DNA of 64,000 nt from assembly GCF_000424625.1 (NCBI RefSeq), contig NZ_AUKG01000001.1, forward strand, positions 1,550,001 to 1,614,000, given 5' to 3'. A model generated the notes under the pieces. That model saw only the letters and a list, made by a program, of their open reading frames with translations, was not told where the DNA came from and did no database searches. The stretch is from Conexibacter woesei Iso977N. GTDB taxonomy: Bacteria; Actinomycetota; Thermoleophilia; Solirubrobacterales; Solirubrobacteraceae. The number at the start of each line of letters is the position of its first letter. The stretch's first letter is position 1. Below, piece after piece: positions 30,655-37,920 of this stretch. A program made the translations under genes and the position numbers.

Positions 30655-31635
30655 ATGGCGCATTACGAGACCGACGCCGAGGTCTACGACCAGCTCGGCA
30701 GCATCCTGAACAACCTGGTGTACAACAGCGCTCGCCGCGAGCAGCTGCGCCAGGCCGATGCTGTTGTGCAGTTCGCGTTCCGGGAGCCGAACGCGACCGT
30801 GACGCTCGACGTCCGCGCCAACAAGACGCCCCGCGTCGACCTCGGTGAGACGAAGCTGCGCGCCGACGTCGTCTTCTCGATGGACGCCGACATCGGCCGC
30901 GCGCTGCTGACCGGCGAGCTGTCGCCGACGATCGCGCTGGCCAGGGGCGACGTCCGGACCAAGGGCCCCGTCGCGAAGGTCCTGCGCGTGGTCCCGGCGA
31001 CCGTCGGCGCCCACGAGGTCGAGGCCGACCTCGAGCCGGAGCCCGAGCCCACGCCGGTCGCCGAGGCACCCGCCGCCGAGACCGCCGACGCTGCGCCGGC
31101 CGCCGCCGAGACCGCTTCGGATGAGGCTGAAGCCGCCGCGCAGAACTCCGCCGCCGAGGCGCCCGGCGCTGCCGCGGAGGCGGAGGAGACGCCCATCGGC
31201 GAGGTCTCCGCGCCGGCCGACGCGCCCGCCGCGGAGGCACCGACTGAGGTGGCAACCGAGACCGTCGAGGCTGCTCCGGCCGAGGAGGAGACTCCGGCCG
31301 CCGAGGAGACTCCGGCCGCTGAGGAGACTCCGGCCGCTGAGGAGACTCCGGCCGCTGAGGAGACTCCGGCCGCTGAGGAGTCTCCGGCTGCGGAGGCTGC
31401 GCCGGCCGAGGCTGCTGCTCCGGCGGAGGAAGCTGCGCCCGCCGCCGAGGAGGCTCCGGCCGCGGAGGCTGCGCCCGCCGAGGCTGCCGCTCCGGCGGAA
31501 GAGGCTGCGCCCGCCGAGGCCGCTGCTCCGGCCGAGGAGACCCCGGCCGCCGAGGACTCCGCGCCTGCGGAGGCTGAGCAGGCCGCGCCGGTCGATCCGC
31601 CGGTTGAGGCTGAGGCGCCCGCCGACAAGGAGTAG
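30655..31635 (+). CDS. SCP2-like sterol/lipid-carrier domain with an acidic Ala/Pro-rich repeat tail
   Basis: 326 residues. Residues ~1-120 look like an SCP2 lipid-transfer domain: VQFAFREPNATVTLDVRA, TKLRADVVFSMDADIGRALL, LARGDVRTKGPVAKVLRV. The remaining ~200 residues are low complexity, built of Glu, Ala and Pro with six tandem EETPAA-type units. Downstream of the thiolase and likely in lipid metabolism. TAGCCT lies 10 bases before the ATG. The tail has no membrane segment; it may be a flexible spacer or binding arm. Confidence 0.82.
   Translation: MAHYETDAEVYDQLGSILNNLVYNSARREQLRQADAVVQFAFREPNATVTLDVRANKTPRVDLGETKLRADVVFSMDADIGRALLTGELSPTIALARGDVRTKGPVAKVLRVVPATVGAHEVEADLEPEPEPTPVAEAPAAETADAAPAAAETASDEAEAAAQNSAAEAPGAAAEAEETPIGEVSAPADAPAAEAPTEVATETVEAAPAEEETPAAEETPAAEETPAAEETPAAEETPAAEESPAAEAAPAEAAAPAEEAAPAAEEAPAAEAAPAEAAAPAEEAAPAEAAAPAEETPAAEDSAPAEAEQAAPVDPPVEAEAPADKE
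31285..31392 (+). repeat. 18-base tandem repeat inside the SCP2-like gene
   Basis: Six consecutive copies of GAGGAGACTCCGGCCGCT, encoding EETPAA; copies 2-5 are identical, the first differs by one base and the last is degenerate. The near identity points to recent slippage or expansion, so copy number may vary between strains. Confidence 0.9.
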
Positions 31636-33817: not shown

Positions 33818-34474
33818 TCAGCCCGTCGCTGCGTCTTCGTAGCCGGGCTCGCCCGGAAGGACGATCCGGGCCATCTCGCCGCCCATCACGACGCGGGGCT
33901 CGACCGCGACGACCTCGCGGCCGCGGGCGAAGTCGAGCAGCTCGGTGGCGGAGTCGAAGCGCGCCAGCTGCTCCAGGTGCTTGATCGTCGGGAAGACCAA
34001 CAACAACTCGCCCGCCCGGTGCGCGGCCAGCGCGCCCTCGGGCGTGAACCAGCCGAAGTCCACGCACTCGGCGCCGTCGACCGCGGGCGCGGCGTCGTCC
34101 GGCGCCGCGGCCAGGAAGAAGTGCGTGTCGAACCGCACCTTCACCTGCGCGGGCGTGATCCACTGCGAGAACCGGACGAGCGACGCCGGGTCGACGCCGC
34201 CCAGCGACGCCTCCTCCTCCAGCTCGCGCACCGCCGCGCGCCGGTGCGCGGCCTCCGGGTCGCCGGAGTCCGCGCCGTCGGCCGCGTCGACCGCGCCGCC
34301 CGGGAACACCCACGCGCCGCCCATGAACCGCGCCGCCGGGTTGCGCTGCACGAGCAGCACCTCCAGCGCGCCGGCGCCGCCGCGGAGCACGATCACCGTC
34401 GCCGCCTGCCGCGGCACCGTCGCCTGCGGGCCGTCGTTGAGCTCTTCGCCGGGGCCGGGCCGATCTACGTCCAC
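33818..34474 (-). CDS. Nudix hydrolase (NUDT19-like)
   Basis: 218 residues. [12 protein letters not shown] begins the Nudix box and [14 protein letters not shown] completes it (REUxEE intact), with an insertion between the two halves as in NUDT19/CoA-diphosphatase-like members. Likely hydrolyses a nucleoside diphosphate linked to another group, possibly acyl-CoA. Among several in-frame GTG codons I chose 34474, because TAGTGT lies exactly 7 bases upstream. Divergent from rubredoxin across 45 bases. Confidence 0.9.
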
Positions 34475-34519: not shown

Positions 34520-34702
34520 ATGAGCGAAAGCGCCACTGTTCAGAAGTGGATCTGCGAGTCCTGCGGGTTCATCTACGACCCCGCTGACGGCGACCCCGAC
34601 GGCGGCATCCCGCCCGGGACCGCCTTCGAGGACATCCCGGACACGTGGTTCTGTCCCGTGTGCGGCGCGCGCAAGCGCGACTTCGTCGCCTACGAGGACT
34701 AG
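34520..34702 (+). CDS. Rubredoxin
   Basis: 60 residues, a full-length rubredoxin that binds one iron through four cysteines: [15 protein letters not shown] (CxxCG) and [13 protein letters not shown] (CPxCG), with the conserved [18 protein letters not shown] between. A cytoplasmic one-electron carrier; partners could be an alkane hydroxylase or an oxygen/peroxide reductase, none adjacent. TACCGT is 10 bases before the ATG. Confidence 0.98.
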
Positions 34703-34802: not shown

Positions 34803-35579
34803 TCAGACGATCGTCACCGGCGTCCCGGCGCGCAGCAGGTGCGCCAGCGCCGCGAGGTCGTGGTTGCGCAGGCGGATGCACCCGTGCGAGACACGGCCGG
34901 GGATCAGCCCGGGCTCGTTGGTCCCGTGGATGCCGATGTAGCCGCCACCCGGCCAATCAGTGAGCGTTGCTGAGCGGGCGCTGGTGCCGAACGCGATCGG
35001 CCCGTAGAACGCGCTGCGGTAGCGCCGCAGGACGTTGCGCACGAGGAACCGTCCCGCCGGGGTCGGGGCCGAGCGGGTGCCGATCCCGACGGGCGCGCGG
35101 AACACGACCCTGCGGTCGCGCAGGAGCGTCGCGGTCAGCGCCCTGCGGTCGACCACGAGCCGCAGGTCGCTCGTCCCGTAGGCGCCGAGCGCGGCGCGCG
35201 GGACCCAGCCGGTCCGGCCGTTGGGCAGGGCCGGCAGCGCGACCCGGACCCAGAGGGCGTCGCCGCTGCGACGGCGGGCGAGGACCGGGACCAGGTTCGT
35301 CGTGCCCTCGGGCGTGCGCGGCCGCAGCACGCCCACCCGCGCGGCCATGCGCCCGGGCCCGGCGCGGGCCGCGGCCGCCGTGCGCACCGAGGCCCAGGTC
35401 GTCGCGCCCGCCTCGTGGGCCAGCGCGCGGGGCGCGCCGACCCGCAGGCCGCCGGGCTCCGGCGCGGGCAACCCGCCGGCCGCGGCCGCCCCGTCGTGAC
35501 GCGGCGCCGAGGCGCTCCCGCAACCCGCGATGGCGCCGGCCGCGGCCAGCGCGGCGACGGTCGCGAGCGCCCGCGTCAT
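34803..35579 (-). CDS. L,D-transpeptidase (YkuD) lipoprotein
   Basis: 258 residues. A lipobox (AIAGC) after the hydrophobic leader marks export and lipid anchoring. An SH3-like segment ([18 protein letters not shown]) precedes the YkuD domain with [19 protein letters not shown] and the catalytic SHGCIRLRN. Forms 3-3 peptidoglycan crosslinks or attaches proteins to the wall. Last gene of the four-gene envelope operon; its ATG overlaps the stop of the preceding ferritin-like gene (ATGA). Confidence 0.95.
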
Positions 35580-36274
35580 CCCGTGAAGCGCGGGCGCCGC
35601 CGGCTCGTCGTGTGCACCGCGAAGTGCGTCTTGTCGACGATCGCGATCGTCGCGGCGCGCGAGCGCGGCTCGTCGAACGCGTCGGGCGCCGGGACGACGC
35701 CGGCCAGGCGGCGGATCCACGCCGCGTGCCGCGCCTCGACGCTCGCGATCGCCAGGGCGGACGCGAGGTAGGGCCGGGACCGGATCCGCGGCGCCTGCGC
35801 GGCGTACGCGGCGACCGCGAGGTCCTCGAACGCCACCGCGGTCTTCTGGAAGCGGTCGTCGTCCTCCGTCGCGCCGCGGAAGTCGAAGCGCGGCCTGCCG
35901 ACCGCATGGCGGCCGAGCGCCACGCGGAACGCCCGGACGTGCGCCCGCTCGTGCGTGCCGACCACCCGCGCCTGGTGGCCCAGCGCGCCGCGCACCGAGC
36001 CGAGCCGCTCGACCTCGGAGTAGAACGACGCCTGGAGGTACTCGAGCGTCAGCGCGTAGTTGAGGATCGCCCGGTCGTGGCGCGTCGCCGCCGCGGTCGT
36101 CGCCGCGGCCGCGACCGCGGACGGGCCGGCGAGCAGCGCGACGAGACCTGCGCCGCCGACGCGCAGCAGCCCGGCCCGCGTGGCGCCGTCGCGATCGCCG
36201 ATCGCGTCGAGACCGGCGCGGACCGCGCCGTCGCGGTCGAGCGTCCCGAGGTCGAGGTCGAGGTCAGCGGACAT
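35576..36274 (-). CDS. Ferritin-like domain protein (second of pair)
   Basis: 232 residues of the ferritin_2 (PF13668-like) fold. A hydrophobic segment near 38-60 (LLRVGGAGLVALLAGPSAVAA) suggests export or a membrane anchor, though no twin arginine is visible. Helices carry LNYALTLEYLQASFYSEVE, HERAHVRAFRVAL and IASVEARHAAWIRRLAG; the Glu/His residues could bind a di-metal centre. The start overlaps the previous gene by 11 bases. Members are often found in stress- or desiccation-related loci of actinobacteria. Confidence 0.88.
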   Translation of the reverse strand: MSADLDLDLGTLDRDGAVRAGLDAIGDRDGATRAGLLRVGGAGLVALLAGPSAVAAAATTAAATRHDRAILNYALTLEYLQASFYSEVERLGSVRGALGHQARVVGTHERAHVRAFRVALGRHAVGRPRFDFRGATEDDDRFQKTAVAFEDLAVAAYAAQAPRIRSRPYLASALAIASVEARHAAWIRRLAGVVPAPDAFDEPRSRAATIAIVDKTHFAVHTTSRRRPRFTG

Positions 36275-36839
36275 AGCCGCTGCCCTCGAGCGTCCTGCGG
36301 ACGGTGTCGGCCGAGAGCTGGGGCTCGACGGCGTCGGGTGCCGGGTCGAGGCCGGCGAGGTCGCGGATCCACGCGGCGTGGCGGGCTTCGACGGTCGCGA
36401 TCCGCGCGGCCGCGGCGAGCGCGCCGGGCGTGAGGTGCGCGGCCTGCGTGATGTAGGCCTTGACGCCGAGGTCCTCCAGTCGCAGCGCGCTGCGCGCGAA
36501 GCGCTCGGGGTCGGCGGTGTCGTCGCCGAAGTCCAGCCGCGGGGGAGCGGGCGCGCCGTCGCCGAGCGCGTGGCGGAGGGTCTGCGCGTGGCGCGTCTCC
36601 TGGGCACCGACGGTTCGGGCGTAGTCCAGGAGCTCGCCCTGCAGCCGCGCCTTCCTCAGCGCGTCGGCGTAGAAGCCGGCCTGGACGTCTTCGAGCAGCA
36701 GCGCGAAGGTCAGGATCTTGCGGTCGAGCCCCGCCGACGGCGCGGCGTCGCCGGCGTCGGGCAGGGAGGCGAGCAGGACGCCACCGGTTGTCGCCGCCGC
36801 GGCGACCAGCCCGCGGCGTGTGAGGCGTTCATGAGCCAT
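36264..36839 (-). CDS. Ferritin-like domain protein (first of pair, Tat-type leader)
   Basis: 191 residues. LTRRGLVAAAATTGGVLLAS is a twin-arginine (Tat)-like leader, implying export of a folded, possibly metal-loaded protein. The ferritin_2 helices follow: FALLLEDVQAGFYADALR, GAQETRHAQTLRHAL, IATVEARHAAWIRDLAG. About 40% of positions look shared with the next gene, so the pair probably arose by duplication. The start overlaps the proline-rich gene by 11 bases. Confidence 0.9.
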   Translation of the reverse strand: MAHERLTRRGLVAAAATTGGVLLASLPDAGDAAPSAGLDRKILTFALLLEDVQAGFYADALRKARLQGELLDYARTVGAQETRHAQTLRHALGDGAPAPPRLDFGDDTADPERFARSALRLEDLGVKAYITQAAHLTPGALAAAARIATVEARHAAWIRDLAGLDPAPDAVEPQLSADTVRRTLEGSGYVR

Positions 36840-37920
36840 CGTCGTCCTTGCTGTCGGTTGTGGCCTGCGCGGCGAGCCGATCGAGCGGCGGCCGGCCCTC
36901 GCGCGGCCAGAAGAAGCGCTGCGGGGGCTGGTCGCCCTCGTTGCGGACCGGTTCCCAGCCGTCGGCGACCAGCGCGCCGCCGATGCGGCGGACGGCGGCG
37001 ATCAGCTCCGCCTGCGGCAAGTGGGCGCCCCACCCGGGCCGGTTGTGGGTGGCGGTCCGGAGCACCTCGACGCCGCGACGGCGGCCGGGCTCGCGGGCGA
37101 GGACGCGCAGATCCGCGTGCACGACCCCGTAGTGGTGGGTGATCTCACAGCGCCACAGCGCCTGGCTCCACGGAGGCCACGGGACCCGGCGGAAACGCCG
37201 GACCGGCGGGCCGGCGATCGGTTCGAGCGGCGCGGGTGCCGCCGGGCGCGGCTGGGGTGGCGCGGGACGCGCCTCGGGCGCCGCTGGGCGCGGCGGGGAC
37301 GGAGCGGGGCGCGCCTCGGCTGCCGCTGGGCGCTGCTGGGGCGGAGCGGGGTCCGGCTCGGGCGCCGCAGGGCGCTGCTCGGGTGGCGCGAGGCGCGGCT
37401 CGGACGGCGGCCGGCGCGGCTCGGTCGGCATGGCGAAGGGCTCGGACGGCGCGGCGCGCGGCCGGGGCGGCTCGGGCGCCGGTGCGGGACGCGGAGGCGC
37501 CGGCGCGGCCTGCGTGCGCGTCGGCACGACGGCCGCGGGAGCGGTCGGCTCCGGCTCCGGCTGCTCGGCGGGTGCGGCCCCCGCGGCGGCGGTCTGCGGG
37601 CGTCGCGCACGGCGTCCGACCAGCAGGCCGGCCAGGAGCGTCATCGCGCCGATGACGACCACGAGCAGCCAGCCCGGCGAGCCGCCGCCGTCCGTCGAGC
37701 CCGGGCCATGCGCGGCGGCGGCGGTCGCCGGCGGTCGCAGCGCCGCGCTCGACGCGGGCAGCCGCACCGAGGGCGTGCCGTGGCCGGGCTGCAGGGGGTA
37801 GGCGCGCCACAGCTCCTGCGGGGCGGGATCTGCGGTCGTCGTGGCCGCGGTGGCCGTGCCGGATCCCGCGGCGACGACCATCAGCGCAAGCACGGCCAGG
37901 ATGTGAGCAGGGAGGCGCAT
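36829..37920 (-). CDS. Proline-rich single-pass membrane protein
   Basis: 363 residues: signal peptide (LAVLALMVVAAGSGTATA), outside segment, membrane helix at about 83-103 (WLLVVVIGAMTLLAGLLVG), then RRARR and ~130 residues of Pro/Ala/Arg/Glu repeats (RPAAPEARPAPPQP-type), ending in a folded ~100-residue domain (ALWRCEITHHYGVVHADLRV ... GWGAHLPQAELIAAVRRIGG). The proline-rich part may act as a rigid spacer. First gene of the envelope operon. No known family recognised. Confidence 0.8.
   Translation of the reverse strand: MRLPAHILAVLALMVVAAGSGTATAATTTADPAPQELWRAYPLQPGHGTPSVRLPASSAALRPPATAAAAHGPGSTDGGGSPGWLLVVVIGAMTLLAGLLVGRRARRPQTAAAGAAPAEQPEPEPTAPAAVVPTRTQAAPAPPRPAPAPEPPRPRAAPSEPFAMPTEPRRPPSEPRLAPPEQRPAAPEPDPAPPQQRPAAAEARPAPSPPRPAAPEARPAPPQPRPAAPAPLEPIAGPPVRRFRRVPWPPWSQALWRCEITHHYGVVHADLRVLAREPGRRRGVEVLRTATHNRPGWGAHLPQAELIAAVRRIGGALVADGWEPVRNEGDQPPQRFFWPREGRPPLDRLAAQATTDSKDDDGS

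Follow-up and report, generated by a model that had tools for sequence, protein, structure and literature searches.

Why would two ferritin-like proteins be encoded in one overlapping gene cluster with a cell-wall enzyme? The question is raised by four genes, here called A to D, at positions 34803-37920 of a 64,000-nucleotide stretch of Conexibacter woesei Iso977N DNA (contig NZ_AUKG01000001.1, positions 1,550,001 to 1,614,000), the whole of which is referred to as the window. All four lie on the minus strand and each runs from ATG to TGA: gene A (36829-37920) encodes a membrane protein with a proline-rich region, B (36264-36839) and C (35576-36274) encode proteins of the Ferritin_2 family, and D (34803-35579) encodes an L,D-transpeptidase (LDT). 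Consecutive genes overlap by 11, 11 and 4 bases, which bears out what an earlier note on this DNA had claimed, and a sister genome (G001, locus L043) has an orthologous cluster with the same four genes, order and overlaps, making the start sites credible. The G+C fraction at third codon positions (GC3) is 0.90-0.97 in the four open reading frames (ORFs), fitting coding sequence.

Our answer starts from the end of protein C. It carries a short C-terminal tag, and the pairing of this tag with LDT genes suggests that proteins are attached to the cell wall in an undescribed, sortase-like manner. The open literature searched, from which published systems could be missing, contained no account of a C-terminal tag paired with an LDT.

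Tagged ferritins and adjacent L,D-transpeptidase genes

Protein C ends in RRRPRFTG, and the last five residues, P-R-F-T-G-COOH (35579-35593, minus strand), abut the stop codon. This is the only P-x-F-T-G before a stop codon that a pattern search of the genome assembly found. Tandem ferritin pairs are common in Solirubrobacterales, and a subset is followed by an LDT gene (genomes G001, G014, G021, G060 and G008). More ferritin-LDT loci were found in Solirubrobacterales, Thermoleophilaceae, Conexibacter, Paraconexibacter, Candidatus Gaiellasilicea and other families of the class Thermoleophilia. In LDT-linked pairs the second ferritin is extended by ~15-20 residues and ends in P-x-[F/Y/M/V]-T-G, and the first ferritin was untagged in the loci examined; ferritins without an LDT end at ...TGFI(K)G.

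Among 166 non-edge ferritin genes, 27 have both the tag and an LDT gene, 1 has the tag without an adjacent LDT gene, 2 have an LDT gene without the tag, and 136 have neither (p about 1e-27, Fisher). The single tagged ferritin without an adjacent LDT gene (L095) has one 2.3 kb away. As for the two untagged ferritins beside an LDT gene, one has a degenerate PAIGG end and the other belongs to a locus where the second ferritin is apparently disrupted, with broken reading frames. A looser tag pattern gave 8 tagged ferritins without LDT, 7 of which had the domain's own ...FITG end, so the stricter count was adopted. As read from the gene sequences, ferritins with an LDT gene behind them carry the tag, and almost no others do.

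The neighbourhood check confirmed that the genes are kept together in relatives, as the order ferritin, ferritin, LDT is found again in numerous genera and in several Thermoleophilia families, with A-like genes at the same loci. With the tail left out, a ferritin tree groups the tagged ferritins into one clade of 20 and one of 8, besides a few single ones, and each of the two clades has a different LDT clade as its partner. Both the ferritin and the LDT trees (FastTree) were built from few columns and have limited resolution. Incidentally, in G008 the ferritin pair and LDT gene (L052, 5329-8619) have genes for DUF4331 and TPR proteins as neighbours, where the putative anchoring unit may have another functional setting.

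The same end on unrelated surface proteins

LDT genes were then sampled on their own by a class-wide profile search and 80 fetched loci, all in Thermoleophilia. At places without ferritin, D-like LDTs are preceded by other secreted proteins with the same end, for example ...KPKFTG (1292 residues), ...KPRFTG (1622 residues) and ...APRFTG (1109 residues, at L154). A same-strand ORF ending in [FYMVLI]TG lies within 450 nucleotides upstream of 40 of the 67 distinct high-scoring LDTs, or 47 of 67 with a relaxed motif, compared with 21 such ends among 9104 background ORFs (p about 8e-59 for 40/67, Fisher). Pattern thresholds were set after the first cases had been seen and larger samples were drawn afterwards; moreover, related sequences are not independent, so that the Fisher p-values given here overstate the evidence. 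On the domain assignments, the spread of the tag over unrelated protein families is a stronger argument than the p-values.

Several tagged LDT neighbours carry SpaA_2, SpaA_4, SdrD_B, DUF11 or DUF7507 domains, and a choice-of-anchor Q domain is present in one. All these domains typically occur in proteins that are retained by a C-terminal sorting signal, and the choice-of-anchor type owes its name to the exchange, among its proteins, of one surface-anchoring signal for another. Signal peptides are present in the tagged proteins inspected, often together with proline-rich spacers. The window's own genome contains a second tag-LDT pair, in which a 747-residue SpaA_4/DUF11 protein with a signal peptide and a proline-rich spacer (contig C1, about 1136254-1138494; L182, 2755-4995) ends in ...TAPAVTG directly before another LDT gene. 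At another locus (L154, 1015-8844), three tandem paralogous surface proteins stand around one LDT and all end in ...APRFTG; the one scanned has a choice-of-anchor Q domain.

Some genomes encode further tagged exported proteins far from any LDT gene, as is the case for substrates of housekeeping sortases, and the remote sites sampled are mostly large exported proteins. P-x-F-T-G sites number 2.56 per genome with a strong LDT versus 0.78 without (p 5e-7), noisy counts in that the pattern also admits TGG and a reversed-pattern control averages 1.19 in strong-LDT genomes. The richest tag genome encountered (G146) has 13 sites versus 0 for the control pattern. Outside Thermoleophilia but within the phylum, the motif again stands ahead of related LDTs (PTFTG, PNFTG and PTFTG; PGFAG and PDFAG). 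The same end thus occurs on unrelated exported proteins and together with one enzyme family, as is general for C-terminal sorting.

The tag codons vary synonymously and the spacing from tag gene to LDT gene varies, indicating that selection acts on the residues. For the same reason, we rejected the possibility that the 'TG' end is a by-product of an ATGA overlap or of a ribosome-binding site.

This arrangement resembles the sortase/LPXTG and CTERM systems (PEP-CTERM/exosortase, GlyGly-CTERM/rhombosortase and MYXO-CTERM/myxosortase), where a short C-terminal signal on unrelated exported proteins is likewise paired with a processing enzyme, and LPXTG also shares the proline and the Thr-Gly bond. 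The genome has three PF04203 sortases, and P-x-F-T-G looks like a shifted LPXTG. Could the tag then be read by another enzyme such as a sortase, or be an export or stability signal, with LDT genes adjacent because both serve the surface? Sortase and CTERM signals are tripartite, consisting of motif, membrane helix and basic tail (PMC3237569), whereas the tag is itself the C-terminus of the protein and is partnered by a YkuD enzyme. In C nothing follows the last five residues, neither helix nor basic tail, and it was rejected as a sortase substrate of the LPXTG type; a hydrophobic 19-mer is present in the last 60 residues of only 1 of 88 tagged proteins. With the pairing to LDT genes near perfect on ferritins as well, we regard a different reader or an export or stability role as very improbable.

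The partner enzyme and a proposed anchoring reaction

Protein D has an N-terminal signal with a lipobox (IAGC), a weak SH3-like match and then a YkuD domain (76.4 bits versus a cut-off of 23.4). Its best Foldseek matches are all LDTs, led by 1Y7M (E 1.7e-10). D contains the catalytic H...SHGC.R motif, with the segment from H218 to C234 at 34878-34928 (minus strand), just ahead of the conserved R236; H218, G219, S231, G233, C234 and R236 are invariant in 14 LDTs of the tag-partner type. The fold and catalytic motif are shared with cross-linking LDTs (B. subtilis YkuD, LdtMt1/LdtMt2 and Ldtfm), but the tag-partner clades are separate from those of ordinary LDTs in these genomes and have a tagged partner gene upstream.

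We put at roughly two in three the probability that the LDT reads the C-terminal tag and fixes the tagged protein to peptidoglycan. Several observations count against this. Of the 67 high-scoring LDT loci, 20 lack even the relaxed tag in the scanned 450 nucleotides; at some of them (L151, L154, L159 and L163) a tagged gene is nearby or divergent, and at others none was seen. In the LDT tree, tag-associated LDTs are distributed among several deep clades and the ordinary LDT clades have no tag, so the property is not family-wide. Two partner LDTs (L045 and L170) have Ala in place of the catalytic His of SHGC, though SxGC variants do exist. The relatives are mostly draft or metagenome-derived genomes in which ORFs were called mechanically. 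Finally, the tag might serve in docking or export and not be a site of cleavage.

We conceived the following course for the cluster. B and C would be exported, mainly by twin-arginine translocation (Tat), and probably pair with each other, while D would be made by coupled translation from the overlapping ATGA. D would then recognise the P-x-F-T-G-COOH tail and link C, and B along with C, to peptidoglycan. Here the L-Thr-Gly-COOH end may imitate the L-DAP-D-Ala-COOH end of the stem peptide (DAP, diaminopimelic acid); Cys234 would attack the Thr carbonyl, glycine would leave, and the acyl group would pass to a wall amine, a sortase-like reaction performed by an LDT. LDTs cut between an L-centre and a C-terminal D-residue and are able to replace the terminal D-Ala4 by glycine (PMC10434034), which makes L-Thr-Gly-COOH a plausible donor mimic. 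A need for a free carboxylate would also explain why the tag is always at the very end of the protein. In general form, the LDT would use the protein's own C-terminus (P-x-F-T|G-COOH) as acyl donor, cleaving Thr-Gly and moving the protein to peptidoglycan independently of sortases, with dedicated LDT-substrate pairs serving adhesin-like surface proteins and a dimetal ferritin-like enzyme. This donor chemistry is quite possible, but we propose it more tentatively than anchoring itself.

In the known LDT anchoring systems (Lpp with ErfK/YbiS/YcfS, and OutB in Dickeya), a YkuD LDT is likewise associated with a protein that has a short C-terminal recognition box, and wall anchoring would be expected here too. 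In those described in PMC12274547, however, the protein is always the amine acceptor, through the C-terminal Lys of Lpp and OutB, the N-terminal Ala/Gly of outer-membrane proteins, or the internal Lys of LimB. This precedent suits a different explanation, in which the tag is a docking peptide only and the LDT makes ordinary 3-3 cross-links or anchors the protein via another amine (its N-terminus or an internal lysine), as with Lpp or the proteobacterial outer-membrane proteins; Arg or Lys at tag position -4 (38 of 88) would also fit docking. On the other hand, Lys is absent from the last six residues in 74 of the 88 tags and from the last 15 in 58, and a strict free Thr-Gly C-terminus is left unexplained by docking alone but is expected of an LDT donor. 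We therefore consider docking alone unlikely. An Lpp-type lysine acceptor was rejected specifically, as C ends in RRRPRFTG and Lys is usually lacking near the tag. The present case also differs from Lpp/OutB-type anchoring in its Thr-Gly-COOH end, its occurrence in Actinomycetota, and its dedicated substrate-LDT gene pairs on unrelated families.

If LDTs do anchor tagged proteins, a large group of soil Actinomycetota would hold surface proteins by a route distinct from sortases and Braun-type anchoring, carried out by enzymes whose family is otherwise associated with cross-linking and with sensitivity to carbapenems. The tag would make surface proteins predictable from sequence in hard-to-grow organisms and offer a very short C-terminal handle for protein display. 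Ferritin_2 proteins, which are linked to desiccation tolerance in plants, tardigrades and Deinococcus, would obtain a defined place in the wall.

Ferritin_2 proteins B and C

B and C match Ferritin_2 (PF13668) with 110.3 and 121.2 bits versus a cut-off of 24.7, and are 49% identical over the domain. By profile and alignment, B is a Ferritin_2 protein with a twin-arginine leader (LTRRGL) and without a C-terminal tag. C, assigned by profile, alignment and a predicted model, has an exported type of N-terminus with a degenerate twin-arginine motif (TRAGLLR), canonical in a relative (SRRSFLR). These leaders fit the claim of the earlier note that two ferritin-like proteins are exported, one of them with a Tat-like leader. 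The model of C shows a confident four-helix domain and a disordered tail at residues 222-232.

Candidate metal ligands E78, E109, H112, E150, E180 and H183 of C are invariant in B- and C-type proteins (sets of 12 and 30 sequences). They fit the pattern of Glu, ExxH, Glu and Asp/Glu on four helices and align with the ligands of RvFeMP-1; by this alignment, B and C carry a complete dimetal site. The only convincing solved relatives in the sequence search were RvY_06210/RvFeMP-1 (E 6e-9), and the same structures (8KCE/8W9K) led the fold search with the predicted model, with modest E-values of 0.003-0.007. We rejected an iron-storage ferritin, as FeMP came first in both searches and bacterioferritin and Dps were much weaker. 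With FeMP dimetal phosphatases as their closest solved relatives, B and C are not to be read as iron storage: 'ferritin-like' here denotes, on these matches, the Ferritin_2/FeMP family and not a storage cage.

B and C thus share PF13668 and aligned metal ligands with RvFeMP-1 of tardigrades, DRB0118 of Deinococcus and PCC13-62 of resurrection plants, and, like DRB0118, they lack the Asp135 ligand of RvFeMP-1. They differ in coming in tandem, with a tagged C-terminus and an LDT partner for one of the two, and in having no Ig-like domain. Once anchored, the ferritin would work outside the membrane, either as a metal-dependent, FeMP-like hydrolase or as a redox or metal protein that aids survival of drying or oxidation.

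The cluster might instead be an ordinary stress operon, in which secreted ferritin-like proteins guard the envelope, the LDT strengthens the wall, and the tail is a lineage relic without an anchoring role. LDTs are generally linked to stress. RvFeMP-1 and DRB0118 are metabolite phosphatases, and loss of DRB0118, the Ferritin_2 protein of Deinococcus radiodurans, lowers desiccation survival (PMC11616004). A link of the cluster to desiccation or oxidative stress may be drawn by analogy with these relatives. A relic tail, however, fits poorly with the same tag on unrelated SpaA, DUF11 and choice-of-anchor proteins beside LDTs and on two separate ferritin clades, and with tag residues that stay while synonymous codons vary. 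The stress operon is already disfavoured, and we take it to be improbable. Of the earlier proposal of an uncharacterised cell-surface system, perhaps for wall remodelling under stress, the surface system is supported by the recurrent gene order and the leaders, but remodelling is not, as the LDT has the appearance of an anchoring enzyme dedicated to the ferritin tag.

Gene A, a putative membrane adaptor

Protein A has no Pfam or NCBIfam match. From its sequence and that of its G001 ortholog, it has a signal peptide, a short external segment (ELWRAYPLQP), one predicted membrane helix (residues about 84-102; 37615-37671, minus strand) followed by the Arg cluster RRARR, a proline-rich region and a small C-terminal domain. 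The external segment belongs to the motif PQELWRAYPLQP (37786-37821, minus strand; consensus P-x-E-L-W-x-x-F/Y-P-L-x-P). By the positive-inside rule the proline-rich part and the C-terminal domain are predicted to lie on the cytoplasmic side, so A is probably not the surface spacer that it had been taken for; the same orientation is suggested by relatives in which a ParA-type ATPase or TPR domain follows the helix.

A search at the BLAST level found A in 3 of 61 genomes, which made it look like a genus-only orphan, but this was withdrawn after a motif search found A-like proteins elsewhere. By pattern, these occur at 8 of 35 ferritin-LDT loci versus 0 of 184 other loci (p 2e-7, Fisher), with three evident false matches set aside (L083, L087 and L106) and two loci added by eye (L093 and L224). 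The motif recurs in L043, L077, L078, L081/L198, L093, L221, L223 and L224, and in relaxed form in L045 and L075. The common plan is signal peptide, motif, helix, Arg cluster and a variable cytosolic part (TPR repeats or a ParA-type ATPase). A-like genes usually come after the LDT gene; in the window's genus A comes first. Examples beside an LDT gene carry, on the cytosolic side, a ParA/MinD-type ATPase (L045, 10401-11639) or TPR repeats (L077, 4501-5982, by Pfam; L075, 8471-9706, by appearance).

A cytosolic ParA/MinD-type ATPase or TPR repeats are unusual for a wall-anchoring locus. A looks like a recurrent membrane-adaptor type known only from ferritin-LDT loci. It would reach both sides of the membrane, and A-like proteins may sense or position the system from the cytoplasm.

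Neighbouring genes

A class-III aminotransferase gene precedes A on the same strand, 116 bases apart. At the other end, a rubredoxin-like gene with two CxxC pairs (34520-34702, plus strand) lies tail to tail with D, and a NUDIX gene (33818-34468, minus strand) lies beyond it, in the same arrangement as in the G001 cluster. The rubredoxin-like protein was considered as an electron donor for the ferritins, which is unlikely as it has no leader while B and C are of the exported type. A few kilobases from the cluster, a plus-strand gene (30655-31635) encodes a protein with a long low-complexity tail rich in Ala, Glu and Pro (repeated EETPAAEETPAA).

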